DNA of 64,000 nt, taken from contig NZ_CP157940.1 of assembly GCF_040207125.1 (NCBI RefSeq), forward strand, positions 2,108,001 to 2,172,000, written 5' to 3'. Positions 1 to 62,898 of this stretch are shown here, in pieces (the stretch's first letter is position 1; each line of letters opens with the position of its first letter). Below the pieces are notes generated by a model. That model did no database searches. It was not told where the DNA came from and saw nothing but the letters and a program-made list of their open reading frames with translations. Origin of the DNA: Lacrimispora sp. BS-2 (GTDB lineage Bacteria > Bacillota > Clostridia > Lachnospirales > Lachnospiraceae). The position numbers were made by a program, and so were the translations under genes.

Positions 1-3000
1 ATACATGAGCCCTTAACGTCGTATGCGCATCATTCCCCTTCTCAATCAGATCGCGCCACCATTCTATTGCCTCCCCCAGTAAATCCACAAAGTTTAATGG
101 GGAATTTAAGCAGTATATATAACTGTTTAAAGAGAAAGGACTATCCAGATATCCCTTTTGAATATCCTCTCCCGCAAATCTTCCAAGCTCCGGGACATAC
201 TCTCTGGCCTGAGCATAATAAGTTCCAATTACTTCATCTGCTAAGTATCCGGTATAAGAGAAGGGCTGTCTCTTCCCCGCATTTCCATATTCGTCACAGC
301 CAAATTCATCATACCCATAACGTTCCAATTCTTTTCCGGTATACCAAAGAAAACGAACCGGACTTCCCATTTCATCTAAAAGGGCAAAGCTGTCTACCCC
401 GTTTTCTCTCATGCCTTCCAGAGAATTCCCCCACAAATAGGTTTGACGTTTTCCTCCCCTTTCTAACGCCAGAAGGTCATGATGATCCTTTGTCATGTCA
501 AGAAGATATTCTGTGTCAACAGGATTTGCTCCGCCTTTTTTTTCTGACGTTCTGACTCTTTGTCCCAGACCATTATATTCATGCCTGCTGCTTTTCCCGT
601 CTCTGGTTTCTGCTCTTTCAAGCCTTCCCATGGCATTATAACTGTATTTCTGCCAAAGGACATCATTCTCCCAGACCTCTGTCAGATTCCCTCTTAAGTC
701 ATACCGATATGCGTACTTGGACGTTCCGTTTTTTTGAACTATCTGATCTGCGGCATTATAGATATAATCGGTTCGGTCTTCTCCTTCCACCATAACTGTA
801 CGATTATAAAACCTATCATACCCATATTCACGCAGCACTTGTCCATTCTGTTCCACAGCGGTTAGCCGTCCACTCCGGTCATAGTGATACCGGTAGTCTC
901 CGCTTTCCTTAGGGATTCCTCTGCGGTATTTCTGGATTTGTGTTTTATTCTCCATGAGATCATACGCATATTGGTAGTCTTCCAATACCGTTTCACCGCT
1001 TTTATGAATCAGCTTCTTAAGCCTTCCCACATGATCATAAGTCCAACACGTAGTAAGATTGTCATTGCAGATTCTTTCTGCCAGCCTTCCAGCCGAATCA
1101 TACCGGTAATTCACACGGGATTTACCATTTTTCACCTGGGTAAGGCGCAAAAGTTGGTCATAGGTATATTCGGTACGGTTCCCCTCTGGATCGATCACAG
1201 CTTTTCTTTCATCCATATCTCCGAATTCATACGCTATGCTCTGGCCCCGGTGGTTGGTTACCTTTTGGATTCTTCCATAACTGTCATACTCAGCGGCTGT
1301 GGTTCCCAACCAGTCTTCTATCTCCTTTAACTGCCGAAGATGATCGTAGGTATATTTTACCACGTCCCCATTATCATATGCAATGCTCTCAAGCAGTCCA
1401 TCTATGGTGTACGAAAAGGAAGTGCTCCGTCCATCACGGTCTGTTCTTCGCAATACGTTTCCGGCTGCATCGTGTTCATACTGTTCTTTATTTCCAAGCG
1501 GATTTATTACAGACACTACCCTGCCATCCAAATCCCTCTCATATAGCGTTAAGTGCAGGTTATGTTTGTCCTGATTAATCCGCATGGCCTCTTCTAACTC
1601 CAGATTCCTCTCGGTGATATTTCCCGTGCGGAATACTGCCGTTACATTTCCCAATGGGTCATAACCATACTTTGTTACATTCCCTTCTCCATCCTCTACG
1701 CTTACGAGTTTTCCCGACGGGGAATATCGGTACGTCATTTTATTTTTGTTGGCATCAATCACAGCAGTTATGTGGCCAACTGCGTCATAATCATATGTTT
1801 TTTCCTGCCCATCACTGCTTTTTATAAATATCATGCGGTTTTCATTATCATAAGTGTAATGAATACGGTATCCCCCAGCATCCCACTTTTCTATTATGTT
1901 CCGATTTGCATCATAAGTATAATTCTCACTTTTACCATCTGGAAAAATAACCTTTTTTAAAAGCCCCCCCGGAAAATATTCATAAGAAGTTGTCCTTCCA
2001 ATTGCGTCCTTAACAGATATCGGTTTTCCCATTGAATTGTAACAAAAGGTAGTTATGTTTCCACGAATATCAGTTTCTTTAATTTTTCTCCCGCATGCAT
2101 CATACTCCATCTGTTTCCAGTTTCCGGCCGGATCTGTGATCCTTGCTAAGTTTCCAGCAGCATCATATTCATATTGAGTTACCATGCCAAGAGAATCCGT
2201 TTCTTCTATTACTCTGTTTAATACATCGTAATGGTAACTGGTAGTTTTACCTCTTACATCTTTTATCTCCACCTGGTTTCCACAGGCATCATAAGCAAAT
2301 TTCGTTTGCCCCCCTACTGCATCCTCATGTTGAATCAGTCGGTTGGATTTATCATAGGCAAGGTGTATTTCTCCTCCATTTGGCAGTTTTACACTAATCG
2401 GATTTCCCATTTCATCATACTGGAATTCCGTTGTATTCCCTTCCTGATCCTCGTATCTTTCCGGACGGTTGCAGGAATTGTACCACATCTTTTGTGTTGA
2501 CCCATCATAATCCATGATGGCAATTACTTTTCCACTTGGATTATATTTGTACTCTTTTTCATATCCCATAGAATTAATGGTTTTAACGATATCATTCTTC
2601 TCGTTATAAAAAAATCTGGTTACATTACCATTTCCATCTGTGGTCGAAGAAACCCTGTTTAATATGTCATATTCGTACCGGATCATATTTCCCATTGGAT
2701 CGATCATACAGGTTACGTTGCCAGAGGAATCATAGTGTAGCTTTGTCTTCGAACTGTCCGAATATAAAATACTTTCCAATTGTTTTTTATCGTCGTAGTT
2801 GAAGTATGTAATATTTCCATTTGGATTCTCTACTTCCATAAGATTCCCTGATTTATCGTAACGTCTTTTAGAACAGGCACCATCCTGTTGCTTTATACAA
2901 ATCAATTTTCCGTTAATGTCATAGGTCATATTCGTCTTCTGCCCCAAAGCATTGACTACTTGTGTTAAATTTCCCTGGTTATCATATGCATACCGGGTCG

Positions 3001-4402
3001 TATTCCCGTTTTTATCCGTATAACGAATCTTCTGATTCCTGTCATTATATTCAAATATCTCTTCCCCATCCTCATAAATGGTACGGACATTGCGCATTAG
3101 TTTATCACATTCATAAATAACCAGATTCCCATTCTGCTCCAGCATGTAGGTGCGGTTATTTTCATCATCATACCGGAACTCTGTCACACCCCCATCGGGC
3201 ATGATCTGCTTTCTTACCCGGTCCACTCCGTCATATTCATTCTTCACTCCCAGTATATCCCGAGGAGTAATAATTCCATTTACCTTTCCATTCTCATTGT
3301 ATTCATAGGTATAGGTGTATCCCATGGAATTGGTAAACCAATGCAACTTCCCATACTGGTATCTCAGACTGATCTTTCTCCCGGTATGATCCTCTACATA
3401 GATCAGTTTCCTTTCCTTGTTATAGGTATAATTCAGCCTTCCTCCGGTTCCATTATCCACACATTCTAAAAGTCCATCACTGTTGTAAGTGAATTTCCGG
3501 TTATTTCCATTCCTGTCTTTCTGTCCGTACAGCTTTCCCTCCTGGTCAAACTCATAAACAGTACCATCTTCCCGCTCAAACTGGTAGCCGTTTTCTGATT
3601 TGCGGAGTATTCCTCCGTCTCCCATAACCGGAGCATAACTATCCCCCAGCTTCCGGCAGTAAGGCAGTTCCCGGCCGTCTTCCAGGACGATTCCTAACAG
3701 TTCTTCCTCTTTAATTTTTATCAAACGGACTCCGTAATTATGGTTCCAGCCCTCTCCAAGTACTTGCTGGTCGCCGCAATCCATGGCATTATAGAACAGT
3801 TGAAAACTTAAAGGCAGATTCCCATTTATCACTAGGTCCTCTTTTTCATAAATATAATTCCCTGTGTTCATATTGATGGGATCTTTGCCATAGACCTGGC
3901 AGAGCATGTTCTTTCCTGCTACCCAGCGGAATACATTTTGGTAACGCTTTAAAAATGCAGCCCAGTTTATCTTCCCGTCATACCCTTGGCCTGATGTCAC
4001 GGGAATAATGACTCCTCCCTTTTTGCAGAGCAGGACAGAGCTCATGCTGATAGCCTCTTCTCCTCCTACGGTTTCCGCCTTTCCGGTTCCTACTGCCGTG
4101 TTTTCCCATTTATCAACCAGATCCATGAAACCTTCGCACTTGTGGTCCTTTTCATTCTTTCGGCACTCTCCAAAGTATGGGATATTCTCACAAGCCTTGC
4201 AATCCTTACAGTTCACCTTTTTCTTTCCACCGCTGGTATATCCATGACCAGTTGGAAGTTTAAGCTGTGTAATATTGCTTCCGTTGACACAGAATAGCTT
4301 TGCTCCCTCCACCAGATACTCCTTACTGTCTGCTGCTTTCTGTGCCTGATTAAGCAGCATTCCAGGTCCCTGACCTAAATTCATTTTACCTGCCTCACTC
4401 AT
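1..4402 (-). CDS. Rhs/YD-repeat protein with N-terminal DUF4280 (PAAR-like) domain, 3' end outside window
   Basis: The reading frame stays open from an ATG at 4402 to the window edge (at least 1467 residues). I checked the frame at several points and saw no shift. AGGAG lies about 8 nt before the ATG. Residues 1 to about 140 form a Cys-rich DUF4280/PAAR-like module (motifs VEGAKLFCVNGS, CKDCKAC). A DUF6531-like segment follows (INMNTGNYIYEKEDLVI), then dozens of YD repeats such as IRYEYDILNRV. The Rhs core ends near position 75 with AREYVPELGRF and LNSPLNFVD. In this family the core forms a shell around a variable C-terminal toxin, which would begin at the left edge and is not visible. It is the last visible gene of an operon with two VgrG-like genes, so it is probably a delivered effector; that role is inferred. 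Confidence 0.9.
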   Translation of the reverse strand, partial: MSEAGKMNLGQGPGMLLNQAQKAADSKEYLVEGAKLFCVNGSNITQLKLPTGHGYTSGGKKKVNCKDCKACENIPYFGECRKNEKDHKCEGFMDLVDKWENTAVGTGKAETVGGEEAISMSSVLLCKKGGVIIPVTSGQGYDGKINWAAFLKRYQNVFRWVAGKNMLCQVYGKDPINMNTGNYIYEKEDLVINGNLPLSFQLFYNAMDCGDQQVLGEGWNHNYGVRLIKIKEEELLGIVLEDGRELPYCRKLGDSYAPVMGDGGILRKSENGYQFEREDGTVYEFDQEGKLYGQKDRNGNNRKFTYNSDGLLECVDNGTGGRLNYTYNKERKLIYVEDHTGRKISLRYQYGKLHWFTNSMGYTYTYEYNENGKVNGIITPRDILGVKNEYDGVDRVRKQIMPDGGVTEFRYDDENNRTYMLEQNGNLVIYECDKLMRNVRTIYEDGEEIFEYNDRNQKIRYTDKNGNTTRYAYDNQGNLTQVVNALGQKTNMTYDINGKLICIKQQDGACSKRRYDKSGNLMEVENPNGNITYFNYDDKKQLESILYSDSSKTKLHYDSSGNVTCMIDPMGNMIRYEYDILNRVSSTTDGNGNVTRFFYNEKNDIVKTINSMGYEKEYKYNPSGKVIAIMDYDGSTQKMWYNSCNRPERYEDQEGNTTEFQYDEMGNPISVKLPNGGEIHLAYDKSNRLIQHEDAVGGQTKFAYDACGNQVEIKDVRGKTTSYHYDVLNRVIEETDSLGMVTQYEYDAAGNLARITDPAGNWKQMEYDACGRKIKETDIRGNITTFCYNSMGKPISVKDAIGRTTSYEYFPGGLLKKVIFPDGKSENYTYDANRNIIEKWDAGGYRIHYTYDNENRMIFIKSSDGQEKTYDYDAVGHITAVIDANKNKMTYRYSPSGKLVSVEDGEGNVTKYGYDPLGNVTAVFRTGNITERNLELEEAMRINQDKHNLHLTLYERDLDGRVVSVINPLGNKEQYEHDAAGNVLRRTDRDGRSTSFSYTIDGLLESIAYDNGDVVKYTYDHLRQLKEIEDWLGTTAAEYDSYGRIQKVTNHRGQSIAYEFGDMDERKAVIDPEGNRTEYTYDQLLRLTQVKNGKSRVNYRYDSAGRLAERICNDNLTTCWTYDHVGRLKKLIHKSGETVLEDYQYAYDLMENKTQIQKYRRGIPKESGDYRYHYDRSGRLTAVEQNGQVLREYGYDRFYNRTVMVEGEDRTDYIYNAADQIVQKNGTSKYAYRYDLRGNLTEVWENDVLWQKYSYNAMGRLERAETRDGKSSRHEYNGLGQRVRTSEKKGGANPVDTEYLLDMTKDHHDLLALERGGKRQTYLWGNSLEGMRENGVDSFALLDEMGSPVRFLWYTGKELERYGYDEFGCDEYGNAGKRQPFSYTGYLADEVIGTYYAQAREYVPELGRFAGEDIQKGYLDSPFSLNSYIYCLNSPLNFVDLLGEAIEWWRDLIEKGNDAHTTLRAHV

Positions 4403-4437
4403 TGCTTCTTCTCCTCTCTTTCCCCTATTTCAACCGT

Positions 4438-4962
4438 TTATTTCAAGATGCTGCTGCCAGATAAACTTACCTCCTTAAGTTCCAGACCGGTGGCCTCCCG
4501 TTCCAGCAGACTTTCCGCTAAATCCATACGAATTACTACTGCACTTTCTGTTCCTGTCCTGACACGGAATAGAGGAACTCCACTTATTTTTTCTCTGTCA
4601 AGGATTACCTCTCTCTGTCCGGGGACGGGCTGCGTTGCCAGACACTCCTCTTCTTCCAGCACAGGACAATAATAGGAGGCACATTCCCCTTTTTCCGTGT
4701 CAAATAATACAAAGAACAAAAATGGAATATCTGAATCATATAAAGCCGTCACCTCCATGGCTGGCCTGGAAAGCAAAAGAAATGGCTTAACAATGACATC
4801 CGGAAATATCCCGTCCATTCCAAGTTTTGCATTAAGCTGAATGAAAGGCGGCATCTTCTGGTACTCGTCCCGTGTCAGCTTCCTCACATCAATGGTCTCG
4901 CTCCAGTTTATGATCTGTGGAAAAGGATTTTTATCTCCATTGGTCAATATAAAATATTTCAT
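4438..4962 (-). CDS. Imm11/DUF1629-like protein upstream of the Rhs gene
   Basis: A protein of about 174 residues. It shows the layout I associate with the Imm11/DUF1629 family: an MKYFIL start, a central PDVIVKPFLLLSRPAMEV segment followed by LYDSDIPFLFFVLFD, and a C-terminal IRMDLAESLLEREATGLEL helix. I chose ATG 4962 because it overlaps the preceding stop as ATGA and has AAGG just upstream. A TTG at 4980 behind GGGGGAG is the alternative (180 residues). It ends 36 bp before the Rhs start, so the two are co-transcribed. Imm11 proteins usually neutralise toxins, but immunity genes normally follow the toxin tip, so here it may be an accessory or adaptor protein instead. Confidence 0.6.
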   Translation of the reverse strand: MKYFILTNGDKNPFPQIINWSETIDVRKLTRDEYQKMPPFIQLNAKLGMDGIFPDVIVKPFLLLSRPAMEVTALYDSDIPFLFFVLFDTEKGECASYYCPVLEEEECLATQPVPGQREVILDREKISGVPLFRVRTGTESAVVIRMDLAESLLEREATGLELKEVSLSGSSILK

Positions 4963-5531
4963 CTTTCCTTCATACGCCAAAGGATCTCCCCCTCTCCCTG
5001 ATATCTTCCGAAAAAGGCAGTAAAACTTTCTGCCTTTACTGCCTTTTGAAAAGCTTCCGTTTCCATGATCTCTCCTGCCAGGTCAAAGCACAGCTGACTG
5101 ACAGCCGCATAGTAATATTCCACACATATCCTGCGGACAGCCTCTTCCTCATACCTCCAGATCCTGGGGTACTTTCTCCGTAAGCCTGTCATCACGGATT
5201 CCATGTCTTCCTCAAAGCATTCAAAAAAGCAGGGAGGACGCCAGTAAAGTTCTTCCGGAGCCGGATCAAAATAGAATTCTTCGTCATACAGGGATAATAG
5301 GAGTTCATGGCTTCCGGTCTGAAGGCTGGTGTGGAGATAGCAGATTCCCAGCCATGATACTTCTTTCTGCTCATCTAATGCCTGACTGAATAACCGTACA
5401 AAGGCATCCACTGCTTCATTTCTGCATTCCGTTTTCCGGTAATCCCTCTCCAGCCTGCGGCACTGGGAAGCAAATAACTCTTCCTCTGCATTTTGGGCGT
5501 CTCTCTCCAATTCTTTTATCCTGTCCATCAT
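4959..5531 (-). CDS. uncharacterised protein of the VgrG/Rhs operon
   Basis: A 190-residue protein of unrecognised family. The first 40 residues are highly charged and helical (KELERDAQNAEEELFASQ) and probably coiled-coil. The rest is rich in aromatic residues and Glu, with no signal peptide or membrane segment. GGAGGGG precedes two adjacent ATGs at 5531 and 5528. Its stop overlaps the next gene by 4 nt (ATGA), suggesting translational coupling. From position between a VgrG-like and an Imm11-like gene I infer a cytoplasmic adaptor or structural role. Confidence 0.75.
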   Translation of the reverse strand: MMDRIKELERDAQNAEEELFASQCRRLERDYRKTECRNEAVDAFVRLFSQALDEQKEVSWLGICYLHTSLQTGSHELLLSLYDEEFYFDPAPEELYWRPPCFFECFEEDMESVMTGLRRKYPRIWRYEEEAVRRICVEYYYAAVSQLCFDLAGEIMETEAFQKAVKAESFTAFFGRYQGEGEILWRMKER

Positions 5532-5543
5532 GACCCCTCCTGC

Positions 5544-6944
5544 TTATTGTACTTTCAGTTCTCCTCCGGTAAATGAGATTCCCTGATCAAGGTCGATGCT
5601 GGTTGTCTTTTGTTTCAGATTTACAGAGGCCGTCCCGGCTGCTATGAGAGAGCCGGTCTCGCTGGAAATAGTCAAGTCATCCTTTGCCTTTATCACGATG
5701 TCATGCTGGCTGACAATCTGCACCCCTTTTGCATCATTTAATTCGATTTTTGTCCCCTGGTTATTGGTAATTACAATGGACTCCGGGGTAAAACGGACTT
5801 CCTTCTGGTATTTATTCTTCATGATCTTGTACTCCGGATTTTTCCGGTCCGGGCTTTCCGTATCCAAATGAACGGAGCTGACCACATAAGCCTCTTCTTC
5901 CCTTTGTTCCGGTATATGCAGCCGGACCACATCGCCGATTTCCGGCATACAGTACCAGCCGGTCCCGTCAGGAGTAGAATAAACCGTAGAGTATGGATAC
6001 CACAGATTGATATTCTGCTCCTGGTTTTCATCCTTTAAGACCTTTACCATCACTTTATCCTCTTTCACTTGCAGGACCTCTGCCTGGAAGGAACAACCGG
6101 ATCTGTCTTCCTGGAATGTTTCTGGAAAGTCCATGCCGGACCTGGATTTTAAATGGCATGTATGAAGCATTTCTCCTCTTTCATACCTGCTGTCCATTTT
6201 CCAGACAAAGAGCTGTAGTCCATTTACTATCATCTGATCCCCGATCTGATAATCCTCCCGGCTCTGTAAGATGTATTCCAGACAGGCCCCTTCCTGCATT
6301 TCCTGAAGCCCCTGGTTCCGTTTTCTGCGGTAACCTCCCAGATCTTTTTTCACTGTATATTTGATGGAATCTGGAAATTCATAACGTTCACCCTCCGGTA
6401 GATCATAAAAATATTTAACACCGCATGTCCTGGTACTTGGCACCAGGAAGCTGTGAAATCTTGCTGCTATCCGCTTTAAAAATTCCCAATCGGATTCTCT
6501 GTGCTGCAGCACCAGTTTTCCTGTTGTGTCCGTGAGTGGCCGGGTTTTGATGAGCCCTGGGTTCTCATAAGTACCGGTGATCTGTTCAAAGATCTTTTCA
6601 TATGTGACTGTACTGTCCTGAAAGGTCCTGAAATGCGGTTTTAAATCCATAAAGCACGTACCCGTAGTTATCTCCAGGGTCATCCTTTTCTGGTCTTTCA
6701 TGCTTTCAACCGAGAAACCGGTAACAATTCCCCAGAAAAGGATCTGTGCTTCGCCATCTTTTCCTACTTCTTCTATTTTTTCCCATACGTCTCCGGTCAG
6801 CTGCTTTATATAAATTTCTTCATCCTTATCTGCTATGTATCCGCTTATTACAGCTGTACCATGTTCATTAATTTCTCTGCTGACTTTAAGTTCTCTGATC
6901 TCTATAAACTGTAACGGTTCTGTTTTAAGATTGTATTCTTTCAT
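5544..6944 (-). CDS. VgrG/late control D-like spike protein (copy 2)
   Basis: About 467 residues. The N-terminal half has the phage gpD/VgrG barrel pattern, including the hallmark HRESDWEFLKRIAARF (about residues 145-160). The middle has the gpV-like segment with YCMPEIGDVVRLHIPE. The C-terminal end is a run of short beta-strand repeats (GVQIVSQHDIVIKAKDDL), as in a triple-stranded needle. A perfect AGGAGG lies 6 nt before ATG 6944, so the upstream in-frame TTG at 6974 is unlikely. The start overlaps the preceding gene by 20 nt. It resembles the 8322-9908 gene in architecture but differs widely in sequence. In known systems such proteins tip a contractile needle and carry PAAR or Rhs cargo. 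Confidence 0.85.
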   Translation of the reverse strand: MKEYNLKTEPLQFIEIRELKVSREINEHGTAVISGYIADKDEEIYIKQLTGDVWEKIEEVGKDGEAQILFWGIVTGFSVESMKDQKRMTLEITTGTCFMDLKPHFRTFQDSTVTYEKIFEQITGTYENPGLIKTRPLTDTTGKLVLQHRESDWEFLKRIAARFHSFLVPSTRTCGVKYFYDLPEGERYEFPDSIKYTVKKDLGGYRRKRNQGLQEMQEGACLEYILQSREDYQIGDQMIVNGLQLFVWKMDSRYERGEMLHTCHLKSRSGMDFPETFQEDRSGCSFQAEVLQVKEDKVMVKVLKDENQEQNINLWYPYSTVYSTPDGTGWYCMPEIGDVVRLHIPEQREEEAYVVSSVHLDTESPDRKNPEYKIMKNKYQKEVRFTPESIVITNNQGTKIELNDAKGVQIVSQHDIVIKAKDDLTISSETGSLIAAGTASVNLKQKTTSIDLDQGISFTGGELKVQ

Positions 6945-7518
6945 GCTCTTCCTCCTCTGTCTGTATCGTCCCAAGCATGGTAAGGATTTTCGGCTTCCAT
7001 CTGTCGTAGTCCTTAAATATGCAGTAAAAAGTTCCTATGATTAATTTTCCCTCCGCAAGGAACAGGAACATCATGTTATAGACCCGTTCATCGGCGGCAA
7101 AGCTTTTGTAGTCAAACCACAGGGCAGGGATAGTTCCAGATACATTTCCCTGATCATAGAAAACGTTTTTTCCGTCTGCCTGTTTTAGTATCCGGCGGAT
7201 TCGTTCCCTCTCAGCTTCCAGATCGATAATGGTTTTCCCATTTTCCAGCCTTGCAGTCTGGAAAGTGAGTCCTGCGTGTTCATGAGAATTGACAAGAATC
7301 ATTTCCGGCCTGTTTTTGGAAAAGAAGACAGACGCTGCCTTTTCCTTTCCGATCTCTTCAAAACCACCAGGAATCTTCAGCGCAAAACCCGGACCATAAA
7401 ACTCAGACCAGCCAGACGGTTCTTCTCCCCGCCTCTTCACTTCCGGTTTTATCCTCTGCAGCTCCTTCTGTATTTGAAGGAATACTTTATCAATATCATC
7501 ATCATGAACCTCTTCCAT
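6925..7518 (-). CDS. uncharacterised protein, paralogue A of the VgrG/Rhs operon
   Basis: About 197 residues, cytosolic-looking. A helical N-terminus is followed by an alpha/beta domain beginning YGPGFALKIPGGFEEI, with the motif NRPEMILVN then LTFQTARL. The neighbouring upstream protein has the same order (KRPEMILAD, MTFQRIDK, and a C-terminal stretch ending in a helix), so the two are probably diverged paralogues. The fold may be DcrB/PsbP-like, which is only an impression. ATG 7518 sits 6 nt after GGGAGGTG; GTG 7527 is the alternative. Context suggests a chaperone or loading factor for the VgrG/Rhs proteins. Confidence 0.75.
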   Translation of the reverse strand: MEEVHDDDIDKVFLQIQKELQRIKPEVKRRGEEPSGWSEFYGPGFALKIPGGFEEIGKEKAASVFFSKNRPEMILVNSHEHAGLTFQTARLENGKTIIDLEAERERIRRILKQADGKNVFYDQGNVSGTIPALWFDYKSFAADERVYNMMFLFLAEGKLIIGTFYCIFKDYDRWKPKILTMLGTIQTEEEEHERIQS

Positions 7519-7548
7519 CCAGTTCACCTCCCAACATATCCTGGTACA

Positions 7549-8067
7549 CTAAGTTGTTTCATGCAGCGTATGAAAGAACTGCTTCAACAGAACCTCCCAT
7601 TTCATGCGATCCTGCTCTGGATAGGTAGCTGTAGCAAGGAACATTTGGTTACGAACTGACAGGACCGCCTTTGTATGTTGCTGCTTTTCTCCGAATTCTT
7701 CCAGTTCCATGGTAAACCAGCCGGCCGGATACTGCCCGGCCACATACAAATGGACCGGTGACAGTTCACTCCTTGGATGTCTGCTGCTGATATATTCTCT
7801 GACCGCCTCTGCTGCTTTTCTCGTTTCTTCCGGCCTTAGCTTTTTATCAATCCGTTGGAATGTCATCTGATTTTTTCCATCCGCATCTGCCAAGATCATT
7901 TCCGGGCGTTTATCATATGGGTAAAACATCTCTTTCATGATCTCCGGCATCTGCTTAAGCTCTGCCGGAATCTCTGCCGATAATATGCCATCGGCCAACA
8001 CAATCCATTCCAGGGCTACCCGTTCCTGGAGACACCCTTCCGTATCCTGATCATACAATATGTTCAT
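7549..8067 (-). CDS. uncharacterised protein, paralogue B of the VgrG/Rhs operon
   Basis: A 172-residue protein with no signal peptide or transmembrane helix. It shares with paralogue A the sequence KRPEMILADADG, then a short strand (QMTFQRID), a helix (RKAAEAVREYISSR) and a C-terminal strand-strand-helix ending in LLKQFFHTLHE. This points to gene duplication. The ATG is preceded by AAGGTG. It starts 12 bp after the small gene 8080-8292 and ends 31 bp before paralogue A. Function unknown; I infer a partner of one of the two VgrG-like proteins, since there are two of each. Confidence 0.75.
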   Translation of the reverse strand: MNILYDQDTEGCLQERVALEWIVLADGILSAEIPAELKQMPEIMKEMFYPYDKRPEMILADADGKNQMTFQRIDKKLRPEETRKAAEAVREYISSRHPRSELSPVHLYVAGQYPAGWFTMELEEFGEKQQHTKAVLSVRNQMFLATATYPEQDRMKWEVLLKQFFHTLHETT

Positions 8068-8079
8068 CCTACATACACC

Positions 8080-8292
8080 TTACTCATTCTTTTCCTGAAA
8101 GCTGATGGCAAAGTCATTTATGATCTGCTTCCTATTCTTCAAGCGTTGCTGTGCCTTGTCCTGCTCCGAGCGGAATACCTTTTGTTCAAGCATGGCTGCG
8201 GCATCCAACTGACTGCTGATTGCATTCAACCGGTTGATTTTTTCAATTGCGGGACTTTTCCCCACGCCGCCGCTTTTTATGGTTTTACTCAT
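8080..8292 (-). CDS. small coiled-coil protein of the VgrG/Rhs operon
   Basis: A 70-residue basic protein. The Gly-rich start (MSKTIKSGGVGKSPAIEKI) is followed by an almost continuous charged helix (LEQKVFRSEQDKAQQRLKNR). GGTGGAG precedes the ATG. It lies between the first VgrG-like gene and paralogue B with short gaps, so it belongs to the same transcript. No family recognised. Confidence 0.65.
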   Translation of the reverse strand: MSKTIKSGGVGKSPAIEKINRLNAISSQLDAAAMLEQKVFRSEQDKAQQRLKNRKQIINDFAISFQEKNE

Positions 8293-8321
8293 CTTTCAGC
8301 TCCACCTCCCTTGGTTTTTCC

Positions 8322-9908
8322 CTATCTGGTCTTCACCATATCCACCTTTGTACCTGTTATCTGCTGTTCCAGCCCGGCAGAGCCGGCTGCACATGGAGTA
8401 GAAGCCAGCAACGCATTCTCCGCTCCGCTGATATCATATTTTTCAGAATCTGAAGAATCGAACACGGGAAATCCAGCCGCTTTGCTTCCTTCCATTTTTA
8501 CTTTTCCGAATTTTCCAATGGAATCAAATCCATTGCACATATTGATAACTGTTGGTGACAGAATATTCCTTCTTACAATCGAAATCTCCTGAGGAGCCTG
8601 AAAAGATACCCTGCTCCCTTTCAGCCATACTCCCTTCTTGGCTAAGATTGTCACTTCCCCACTGCTCTCGATGTTCGCTCCAACCCTGTCATGAATTTCT
8701 ACTTTTAACGGGACTTTCTGTTTCATATCTACAAATCCCAGGCTGTCCGGCAATAGATACATACGTTTATCCTTTGCCGTTGTAAAATACCGCTTTGAAG
8801 GATCTGCCATCTCTTCATTGCCGGTTCCATTTTTTCTGATACAGCTGTTGGCCCTGGCATTTCCTTCACTGCCTTCAAAGGTTATCGTGATACGCTCTCC
8901 GATTTCCGGCATACAATACATTAGATTACCGGTTTCCGGCATCCAAGGATACCAATACCCTTCACCGGAAGACTTCTCCCCGTCAATATCCAGTTTAACC
9001 CGTACAGCTTCCTGTTTCGTTTCCAGTACCGTGCCGCCCAGGGCAACCCCGGCTATTTTGGGATTGTCGTATCCGGCCGTTCCGAATGCTTCGGGAGAAC
9101 CTGCTATATAATGGTAAACCAGCAGACCATTTTCAAGACTGCACCTTTTTGATAAAACCACTGTCTCCCTGCCATCAAACATAGATATGTGGTCTCCTGC
9201 CTTCCAGCTTTCATAACTGCTTATCTCATAACAGATAAACTGACGTTTTTCAAAATGGTACTGATCCCGGTCATAGGTATAGTAAGTCTTATCAAACCAG
9301 ATTCTCTCCGGCCGAATTCCTTTCCCTCCTGCCGAGTCCCCAAGGGGCAGGCCAAAATACAGTTTCGGTTTTAAGGAACCCCCTCCCGGAAGCAGGGAAG
9401 TTCCTAATTGCCCTGCAATCCGTTTTAAAAATTCCCAGTCCGTTTCTCTGTATTGATAAATCGGTTTTTCGATCTTCCGGTCTTCGATATGAAAGACTAC
9501 ATCAGCATTTTCTGTATCGGATAACACACCTCTCACCAGTTCCTTATAAGTCATATCAATCTTTTGAAATGATCTGCTTTTCTCTTCTAAGTCTAGCAAT
9601 TCCGTAGGCGATATCGCCTCAATCCTTGCTTTATACTCATTCCCTTCCTGCCATATCTCAACATTTTTTATGTAACCGCAAAATATAGGCGGAACAGTTT
9701 CATTTCCATTCTCATCTGCCGCTGAAACCGTCACACTACTTCCCTCCAGTTTCTGAAAAACAGGAGACTCTCCTGTTTCAGCCGGTACAAATCCTGTTAT
9801 CCTGGCGACGGTATGGCAGTTTTTTTTAATATCCATATCAAATTCTTTAATTTCATTGATGTTTAACTGGCTGCTGATTATTAGACTTCCTGATGTAACT
9901 GCATTCAT
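8322..9908 (-). CDS. VgrG/late control D-like spike protein (copy 1), first gene of the operon
   Basis: About 528 residues. It carries the gpD/VgrG signature YRETDWEFLKRIAGQL (about residues 145-160), a gpV-like OB segment with YWYPWMPETGNLMYCMPEIG, and a beta-repeat tail with ILAKKGVWLKGSRVSF. The last 90 residues are low in hydrophobicity and unlike the other copy. GGGGAGG lies about 10 nt before ATG 9908; ATG 9926 overlaps that Shine-Dalgarno and is unlikely. It heads the operon and is divergent from the deacetylase gene. Two VgrG-like genes without visible sheath or baseplate genes suggest that these are swappable tips or belong to a scattered system. Confidence 0.85.
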   Translation of the reverse strand: MNAVTSGSLIISSQLNINEIKEFDMDIKKNCHTVARITGFVPAETGESPVFQKLEGSSVTVSAADENGNETVPPIFCGYIKNVEIWQEGNEYKARIEAISPTELLDLEEKSRSFQKIDMTYKELVRGVLSDTENADVVFHIEDRKIEKPIYQYRETDWEFLKRIAGQLGTSLLPGGGSLKPKLYFGLPLGDSAGGKGIRPERIWFDKTYYTYDRDQYHFEKRQFICYEISSYESWKAGDHISMFDGRETVVLSKRCSLENGLLVYHYIAGSPEAFGTAGYDNPKIAGVALGGTVLETKQEAVRVKLDIDGEKSSGEGYWYPWMPETGNLMYCMPEIGERITITFEGSEGNARANSCIRKNGTGNEEMADPSKRYFTTAKDKRMYLLPDSLGFVDMKQKVPLKVEIHDRVGANIESSGEVTILAKKGVWLKGSRVSFQAPQEISIVRRNILSPTVINMCNGFDSIGKFGKVKMEGSKAAGFPVFDSSDSEKYDISGAENALLASTPCAAGSAGLEQQITGTKVDMVKTR

Positions 9909-10208
9909 AAAATAACACCTCCCCATCTGGTTGAATTCCCTTTATAACGTCCAATAAATTCCTGCTATTATAAAATTACATTATACACCAAGAAACGCCA
10001 AAGATACCTTGCATGTAATAAATAACCAGTTAGATGTAATTTTAGGTAACACTTTATTTTTTCATTGTTATTTAACACTAATTTAAAACATAATTAATTT
10101 TAAATAGGTGGTGTTAGTATATAAGTGTGGACACGAAAAGTATAATATATATGTATTAATTCACATTTTCGGCATACATTTGTTATAACAATATATAAGG
10201 GCATAATT
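9909..10208. other. AT-rich divergent intergenic region
   Basis: These 300 bp separate the VgrG operon (minus) from the deacetylase gene (plus). The region is very AT-rich and holds several TATAAT-like boxes on both strands (for example GTGTATAATG on the minus strand near 9980). No well-spaced -35/-10 pair stands out. No ORF. Confidence 0.5.
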
Positions 10209-62125: not shown

Positions 62126-62640
62126 TTAGAAGTTGCCATCTAAAATATAACGCCAAATTGAATTATTTTCTTTCATAGAACTTTTTAAGTCTTCATAGCT
62201 TGCGGCGAATTGATAATAACCATCAATGGGTAAAATTACTATAAAGCTATCATCAGTAAAATAAAAGTTATCATCACTCATTGTAAAGTTATTCTTAAAA
62301 CGATCAAATATTTCATTAATCGTAGTTTCATCAGAATTTTTTGTATCCACATCAATGCCATTAAAATAGTGATGATTTAGTTTATCTTTAAATGAATCAT
62401 CAAATAGTTCATCTATAGTTATTTTTTTACCAGTAGCTAAATTGATATTTATTGAATATACCCAGTTGGTACCGTGAGCACTTCCTTGTGCGTAAATATA
62501 CCCTTCAAATTTAATACTTAAAACATGATTATTTGCATACATTATTGTGTAGCCTACAGGCCATTCAGTACCATTAGCAATACCGCCATTAGAATTTACA
62601 ATGTACGAATAAGGGCTTATTGCTGCCTCCTTACGGTATC
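62126..62640 (-). pseudogene. DUF3298/RsiV-like C-terminal fragment
   Basis: The minus frame holds YSYIVNSNGGIANGTEWPVG, EGYIYAQGSAHGTNWVYSIN and INLATGKKITIDELFDDSFK, then a strand with FYFTDDSFIVILPIDGYYQF. This is the DUF3298 domain found in RsiV-like and other envelope proteins. Its own N-terminus (signal and DUF4163) is absent, and it abuts the DUF4280 fragment out of frame. It is likely a junction product. Confidence 0.65.
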
Positions 62641-62898
62641 TGTAAAAGTATTCGGACAATCTTTTTCTACAGCCATTTGTACTTTTTGAGCCTCTGCTGC
62701 AGTATCCGGATTTTCCATACTGTAACAGCCGCCAAAGCAAATGATATTTTCAGGTTTACAGTCGTTAATCGTCATCAGTGCCCTATCCTTTAGAAAAACC
62801 CCGTGGCTTTTTTCCAATACAACTCTGCTTTTTCTCATACCACAGGTACACGTAGTCCACGCTCCATGAACAACATAAGTGTCTTTTAAATCTGCCAT
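62617..62898 (-). pseudogene. DUF4280 (PAAR-like) protein, truncated
   Basis: 93 codons. It begins MADLKDTYVVHGAWTTCTCG then ICFGGCYSMENPDTAAEAQK, the start of DUF4280 PAAR-like proteins. The second Cys-rich half is missing, ending in TFTDTVRRQQ and stop. DUF4280 also opens the Rhs protein at 4402. The ATG lacks a strong Shine-Dalgarno. Confidence 0.7.

Follow-up and report, generated by a model that had tools for sequence, protein, structure and literature searches.

A probable detached VgrG-Rhs spike-effector module in Lacrimispora sp. BS-2 and its candidate contractile machine elsewhere on the chromosome

The left end of the window, by which we mean the whole 64,000-nucleotide stretch analysed here (C1:2108001-2172000 of the single-contig 4.49 Mb genome of Lacrimispora sp. 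BS-2, a Gram-positive bacterium of gut type), carries an operon of eight genes that encodes two VgrG-type spike proteins, several accessories and a giant DUF4280-Rhs protein. This operon is very probably a detached spike-effector module, with the genes of its contractile machine lying elsewhere on the chromosome at a distance of about 228 kb. An earlier note on this DNA had proposed the operon as a candidate undescribed system, with its machine encoded elsewhere or its products exported by another route. The operon does not form a system by itself; it is the spike-effector component of an unrecognised machine whose locus holds sheath, tube, VgrG and DUF4280 genes, and both that locus and the gene order of a relative (L063) favour a machine encoded elsewhere and not the other route. 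The machine appears to be a conserved gene cluster that standard annotation misses as an injection machine.

All eight genes lie on the minus strand, from position 9926 to the window's left edge, with intergenic gaps of 29, 12, 21, -50, 12, -22 and 35 nt. The two VgrG/gpD-like genes and the DUF4280-Rhs protein that the earlier note had recognised in this tight operon are confirmed by family searches, the Rhs boundary lying slightly further left than the window's edge. In the order of transcription, with Pfam gathering scores as cut-offs, the features are:

8322..9926, minus strand: VgrG-A, spike hub, 534 aa; Phage_GPD 35.5 bits, cut-off 30.1; an alternative start (ATG at codon 7) lies at 9908
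8080..8292, minus strand: coil-like protein, 70 aa; no Pfam match
7549..8067, minus strand: 172-aa accessory, candidate loading chaperone; paralogue of its 200-aa neighbour (E 1e-5)
6925..7527, minus strand: 200-aa accessory, candidate loading chaperone; predicted PsbP/DcrB/Eag fold
5544..6974, minus strand: VgrG-B, spike hub with OB domain, probably starting at codon 11 (ATG); Phage_GPD 35.4 bits and Phage_base_V 24.2 bits, both over cut-off
4959..5531, minus strand: 190-aa accessory, akin to the N-terminal part of the machine-locus pentapeptide protein (L007:10115-11080)
4438..4980, minus strand: 180-aa Imm11-related protein
2..4402, minus strand: DUF4280-Rhs toxin, 1467 of its 1671 aa in the window; DUF4280, DUF6531 and RHS repeats over Pfam cut-off
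3986..4312 (C1:2111986-2112312), minus strand: DUF4280 (PAAR-like tip) domain of the Rhs protein, residues 31-139; 48 bits, cut-off 26.3

The OB domain (Phage_base_V) exceeds its cut-off in VgrG-B only (24.2 against 23.8). Genome searches with Phage_sheath_1 and ClpV models found nothing inside the window, in agreement with the earlier note, which had seen no sheath or AAA+ gene there. A whole-genome search with VgrG-A found five places, namely two in the window operon and three in C1:2323929-2331817, at the machine locus, whose sheath gene lies about 228 kb from the operon. The genes of that locus, on the minus strand and in the order of transcription, are:

VWA protein (692 aa); 730-aa protein (722 aa from its ATG), the putative sheath
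two small paralogues (142 and 141 aa); J-domain gene (L008:7141-7578, minus strand, overlapped by a longer antisense open reading frame and found by a stop-to-stop scan); lipoprotein; two FHA proteins
PP2C; PP2C-type/TPR membrane protein; 824-aa ATPase; DUF2628/PsbP-like membrane protein
three unknowns (B429, B237, B269); 216-aa gene; two VgrGs; pentapeptide protein
Imm11-like protein; DUF4280 protein (73.3 bits in Pfam); 217-aa gene; VgrG-Rhs fusion

By its predicted fold, the 722/730-aa protein would be a contractile sheath. Of the 29 members of the tube family, 17 match TssD at E <= 0.1, the best at 0.0014, and the first reaches 16.1 bits against a TssD cut-off of 25.8; the family also matches Hcp1 6bdc at E 5.3e-4. 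The locus accordingly holds the sheath and Hcp/gp19-type tube of contractile injection systems, and the spike hub and tip of such systems (VgrG, PAAR/DUF4280) are present as well, DUF4280 being treated as a PAAR-like tip in the sections of PMC5014421 drawn on here.

Gene order in relatives, the comparison that the earlier note had proposed, ties the operon to this locus. Among 37 stretches around sheath genes of relatives, L063, which is contiguous with the sheath locus L044, carries B237, the ATPase and B269 followed by homologues of five window genes in the window's order: VgrG-A (33% identity, 6408-7994), a weak match to the 70-aa coil (37.5% over 48 aa, E 0.017), the 172-aa accessory (28%, 8205-8849), the 200-aa accessory (37%) and VgrG-B (40%). 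Related modules stand elsewhere: that of L068 adjoins the machine locus L051 and includes an Rhs protein that shares 35% identity with its window counterpart across 1378 columns, and in L054-L056, from another family of the class, B269 is followed by genes of the 200-aa accessory and VgrG-B types, which in L054 are separated from B269 by an extra 276-aa gene. Within the genome itself, the 190-aa protein and the machine-locus pentapeptide protein are paralogues (E 7e-7).

Co-occurrence points the same way. In one set of 248 genomes (completeness requested at >= 95%), the sheath is present in 16; strong VgrG matches (E 1.1e-24 or better) occur in 16/16 sheath-positive and 1/232 sheath-negative genomes (Fisher p 3e-24), with weak-only matches (E 8.7e-12 or worse) in nine further sheath-negative ones, DUF4280 in 15/16 against 17/232 (p 2e-14) and the accessory in 12/16 against 3/232 (p 9e-15). 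Nine of the 17 sheath-negative genomes with DUF4280, G395 included, have weak VgrG matches only; of the two whose gene context was read, G395 and G418, the first carries a different extracellular contractile injection system (eCIS; L082). The alignments used comprise 21 of 23 sheath loci (A1; L015, with a shortened open reading frame, and the fragment L035 were dropped), 29 of the 34 tube sequences found (A3), 28 of 49 protein matches plus 8 of 15 locus matches for the accessory (A2), and 19 hand-picked VgrG sequences (A8).

Several observations weigh against the assignment of the operon to this machine or of the machine to the contractile systems. In Lacrimispora sp. BS-2, the operon is not adjacent to the machine, which is equipped with two VgrGs, a DUF4280 protein and a VgrG-Rhs protein of its own, and the 200-aa accessory is not significantly similar to the machine-locus 216-aa gene by BLAST (E 0.30). 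The structure model of the sheath has a mean pLDDT of 73.8 and a best Foldseek E of only 2.1e-3, and searches of Pfam, NCBIfam and PDB sequences gave no credible match to a known sheath, leaving the fold alone informative. No Pfam match to the baseplate proteins gp25 or gpJ/gp6 was found in the 20 machine-locus proteins scanned, diverged forms being possible, and B429, B237 and B269 have no credible Pfam match and nothing significant in a PDB profile search. The Fisher tests are uncorrected for phylogeny, with 15 genera among the 16 sheath-positive genomes, and the alignments behind the VgrG, accessory and profile-sheath searches include sequences of the counted genomes, a circularity of which the DUF4280 count is free. 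Individual genomes also depart from the pattern: G418 has VgrG (at a contig end), DUF4280 and accessory matches, yet neither sheath nor ATPase matches; G251 and G394 match the accessory without a sheath; G253 has the sheath without DUF4280 or ATPase matches; VgrG matches lie on contigs other than the sheath's in 4/16 (G227, G245, G253 and G315); and in G238 the VgrG match is confined to positions 22-286 out of 470.

The type VI secretion system (T6SS) is characterised by an Hcp tube, VgrG, a PAAR tip, Rhs effectors, Eag accessories, FHA and PP2C regulators and detached VgrG islands. The present system has a counterpart of each, its tube being Hcp-like, its tip PAAR-like and its accessory of Eag fold, with the window operon corresponding to the detached islands. 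It differs in its sheath, a single chain outside Pfam that the TssB and TssC models do not match, in its Bacillota host and in the J-domain and Hsp70/actin-like genes of the machine core. No ClpV (TssH) was found by genome search, the best score (840.5 bits) lying below the cut-off of 884.95 and away from the locus, with one of 14 control genomes passing; nor did any of the 20 locus proteins scanned match TssJLM or TssEFGK models. As positive controls, eight eCIS and two tailocin proteins, the two classes covered, were all detected by Pfam (10/10). Afp/PVC-like eCIS share with the present system a contractile machine with a DUF4280 tip protein; L082, however, shows in Pfam a CIS_tube with LysM, gp25, Baseplate_J, Tail_P2_I and a stand-alone 129-aa DUF4280 protein, matches that the present machine genes lack, and neither an AAA+ ATPase nor a LysM-bearing CIS_tube was matched in the 20 machine-locus proteins, the control covering CIS_tube and LysM only. 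R-type tailocins (diffocin-like; the genome's own copy is L080) are alike in sheath fold, whereas L080 combines Phage_sheath_1, a domain that Pfam does not find in the machine-locus sheath, with a YQBQ hub, and no toxin-tipped VgrG or Rhs was seen there by eye. Since profile searches of the 20 locus proteins turned up neither the two-part sheath, ClpV and TssJLM that define a T6SS nor the AAA+ ATPase and LysM-bearing tube protein that define an eCIS, the machine is called an unrecognised contractile injection lineage. It has a counterpart in print: a survey, in the portion drawn on here, sets out a puzzle of Gram-positive bacteria and speculates about an "unknown phage-like translocation system" (PMC8651086). 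There, too, Phage_GPD genes stand next to DUF4280 (PAAR_H2) in Firmicutes with no eCIS or T6SS genes around; that portion names no machine, whereas here there is a candidate machine locus.

The accessories invite a further comparison. The 200-aa protein has, in its predicted structure, the DcrB/Eag fold and stands beside VgrG and Rhs as the Eag chaperones EagT6 and SciW do. Eag chaperones bind the transmembrane region of their effector; the window's Rhs protein lacks an N-terminal hydrophobic segment to which the accessory could attach. A protein search gave 49 homologues, one of which is named "DUF1795 domain-containing" in UniRef; no credible Pfam family and no DcrB/DUF1795 match at E <= 0.1 was found among 37 members, and matches to PDB sequences were at chance level. 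The label Imm11-like, which the earlier note gave to the 180-aa protein, holds by way of a paralogue: the window protein has no Pfam match of its own, and the machine-locus protein to which it is related (L007:9588-10118; E 2e-9) scores 21.9 bits against the Imm11 cut-off of 22.1. As it is present in many spike modules (15 homologues among the 37 fetched stretches of relatives, some cut by locus ends), the 180-aa protein is more likely a structural accessory than a toxin-specific immunity protein.

In the machine core, the 824-aa ATPase carries, by eye, what we take to be the phosphate-binding motifs of the Hsp70/actin superfamily. Its profile gave nothing significant against PDB (DnaK at E 0.47), and Pfam assigns Hsp70 to 2/19 and SrfB to 1/19 of its family; the presence of a J-domain protein in that gene block strengthens the case for an Hsp70-like role. 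Its gene we take for a J-domain gene on the strength of a sequence motif and of a profile built from the motif's matches.

The same machine might instead be freed by lysis, as an eCIS- or tailocin-mode particle, rather than fired from the envelope, an alternative that we regard as unlikely, though a serious one. It is opposed by hydrophobic segments in four core families (FHA183, 20/20 members; PP2C-TPR, 19/19; VWA, 12/13; PP2C, 16/18, this genome's copy being one of the two without), by the failure to see lysis genes at the machine locus by eye, and by the FHA and PP2C pair, which is reminiscent of threonine-phosphorylation control in T6SS. Given those hydrophobic segments and the FHA/PP2C pair, an envelope-bound, regulated machine is more likely than a released particle.

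The Rhs protein and its left flank bear on a second alternative. The complete gene (L012:1888-6903) ends at C1:2107387, 614 bases beyond the window's left edge, and has the marks of a polymorphic toxin: RHS repeats, a core-associated domain and a variable C-terminus. The C-terminal region, which includes the protein's sole hydrophobic segment (near the toxin end, at residue 1617 in a hydropathy scan), gives a weak PDDEXK match below cut-off (E 0.051) and may be a PD-(D/E)XK-type nuclease domain; a 287-aa gene starting 31 nt downstream is, from its position, a candidate immunity gene. The earlier note had allowed for a complete standard eCIS or T6SS-like locus adjoining on the left; none was seen in the 20 kb there, which hold an Rhs C-terminal remnant, transposases and unrelated genes and showed no tail gene when read by eye, without a family scan. 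The Rhs C-terminal domain is present a second time, as a partial copy at L006:18004-19355 that adjoins the 287-aa gene and transposases, a sign of C-terminus exchange. These transposases and the second C-terminus would also suit a decaying toxin island without function; the eight frames are nevertheless open and closely packed, and the 49 homologues of the 200-aa accessory are mostly of similar length at identities down to about 43%, so that decay is quite improbable.

Export of the spike-Rhs set in a non-contractile way, for example by Sec or type VII secretion, is slightly more improbable still: no machine gene was seen in the window, and PMC3482391, in the part drawn on here, lists other routes for Gram-positive Rhs-bearing toxins, but the hydropathy scan found no N-terminal hydrophobic segment in any of the eight operon proteins and the linkage to the sheath locus is strong. 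Least probable of all is that the spike rides on the tailocin-like cluster with a classical sheath in the same genome (L080, C1:2744001-2764000), which was rejected as host machine, as it has its own hub (YQBQ, 358.7 bits) and by eye a baseplate-like gene series, and the window families track the other sheath across genomes and adjoin it in relatives.

L080 has its own Phage_sheath_1 sheath, and reading its stretch by eye showed no capsid genes. Another Phage_sheath_1 gene, which stands alone and has an open reading frame of 580 aa (L081, C1:1692033), was likewise rejected as a machine, its 20 kb showing no tail neighbours by eye. DUF4280 is matched at ten places in the genome, at nine of them over cut-off. 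Among them, L036 (C1:2637000-2656999) is an array with four scanned DUF4280 proteins, PdaC-like lipoproteins between them and, by eye, transposase pieces. A phage-tail-lysozyme domain passes its cut-off in one of the four, another has a GH19 match that stays below it, and three scanned lipoprotein-type neighbours match PdaC over cut-off, just short of it and weakly, respectively. The arrangement suggests a cassette array in which wall-attacking tips are accompanied by immunity lipoproteins, a pattern of wall-attacking toxins with surface immunity that would favour antibacterial use. At the window's right end, a DUF4280 fragment (62656-62874, minus strand), apparently a remnant, accompanies an open reading frame (62126-62740) that resembles the L036 lipoproteins by eye; the open reading frames at 10.2 to 16.5 kb were judged by eye to be unrelated to the operon. 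The separate eCIS of a same-family relative, L082 (G395:C35:94001-113900), with its stand-alone DUF4280 tip, has by eye MORN-like repeats and possible cyclase-type neighbours.

The machine itself is widespread. A scan of GTDB genomes gave 417 confirmed sheath stretches, the best 80 of which come from Lachnospiraceae, Clostridium, Peptostreptococcaceae, Pelosinus, Propionispira, Paenibacillus and Aneurinibacillus. In the 56 of these 80 loci that reach at least 22 kb, the sheath, tube, two FHA, two PP2C-type and ATPase families are each present in 56/56, B429 in 51/56, B237 in 48/56, VWA in 43/56 and B269 in 25/56; VgrG and DUF4280 occur in 5/56 each, because the spike genes lie at or past the 10-kb flank, as loci read further show. 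A J-domain gene stands between tube and FHA in 71/80 loci by motif; a motif-derived profile finds it in 92/103 loci, a total that includes duplicates, since six or more contigs belong to both fetched sets; the 11 loci without a match include a shortened extract of the Lacrimispora sp. BS-2 locus. The sheath was found in 6/196 genomes of a class-wide sample, Lacrimispora sp. BS-2 included, and no sheath relative was confirmed among the 55 pattern matches from a viral collection.

As a detached module served by a distant contractile machine, the operon would work by analogy with T6SS or another contractile injector, and on the observed gene content, gene order, co-occurrence and predicted folds, assembly, firing and target attack, with the chaperone, nuclease and immunity roles, may be pictured as follows. 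VgrG-A and VgrG-B would form the hub and spike, capped by the DUF4280 domain of the Rhs protein, which the 172- and 200-aa accessories, with the 190- and 180-aa proteins, would load. The spike would be seated on the Hcp-like tube within the 722/730-aa sheath, whose contraction would expel it from the cell, and the Rhs cage would then deliver its C-terminal domain, possibly a PD-(D/E)XK-type nuclease, with the 287-aa neighbour giving immunity. The FHA, PP2C-type and VWA proteins probably tie the machine to the membrane, and its own J-domain protein and Hsp70/actin-like ATPase may stand in where T6SS uses ClpV. Tentatively, the machine could represent a distinct, Bacillota-wide contractile class in which a J-domain protein and an Hsp70/actin-like ATPase replace the AAA+ unfoldase for sheath assembly or recycling, FHA and PP2C proteins exert phospho-control, and orphan spike modules with Rhs toxins and cell-wall hydrolases are interchangeable; such a class would have stayed hidden because its sheath bears the name "transcriptional regulator".

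No description of the machine locus was found in the literature covered, which is without preprints and most subscription journals, and the sheath family is not mentioned in the consulted parts of a review (PMC10598620) and a sheath survey (PMC9230969). PMC11566945, in the parts used here, draws on a database of 1520 bacterial contractile injection system clusters, Bacillota included, and places the closest relatives of haloarchaeal Cis11 in Bacillota, so that some Bacillota clusters are catalogued. The locus described here offers a concrete machine candidate for the system speculated upon in the part of PMC8651086 consulted, and it occurs in cultured genera (Lacrimispora, Enterocloster, Clostridium and Paenibacillus). 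If this reading is true, a sheath family for which a protein search gave at least 2511 homologues is misnamed or unnamed in databases, and a toxin-injecting machine would be widespread among gut Firmicutes and soil Paenibacillaceae.

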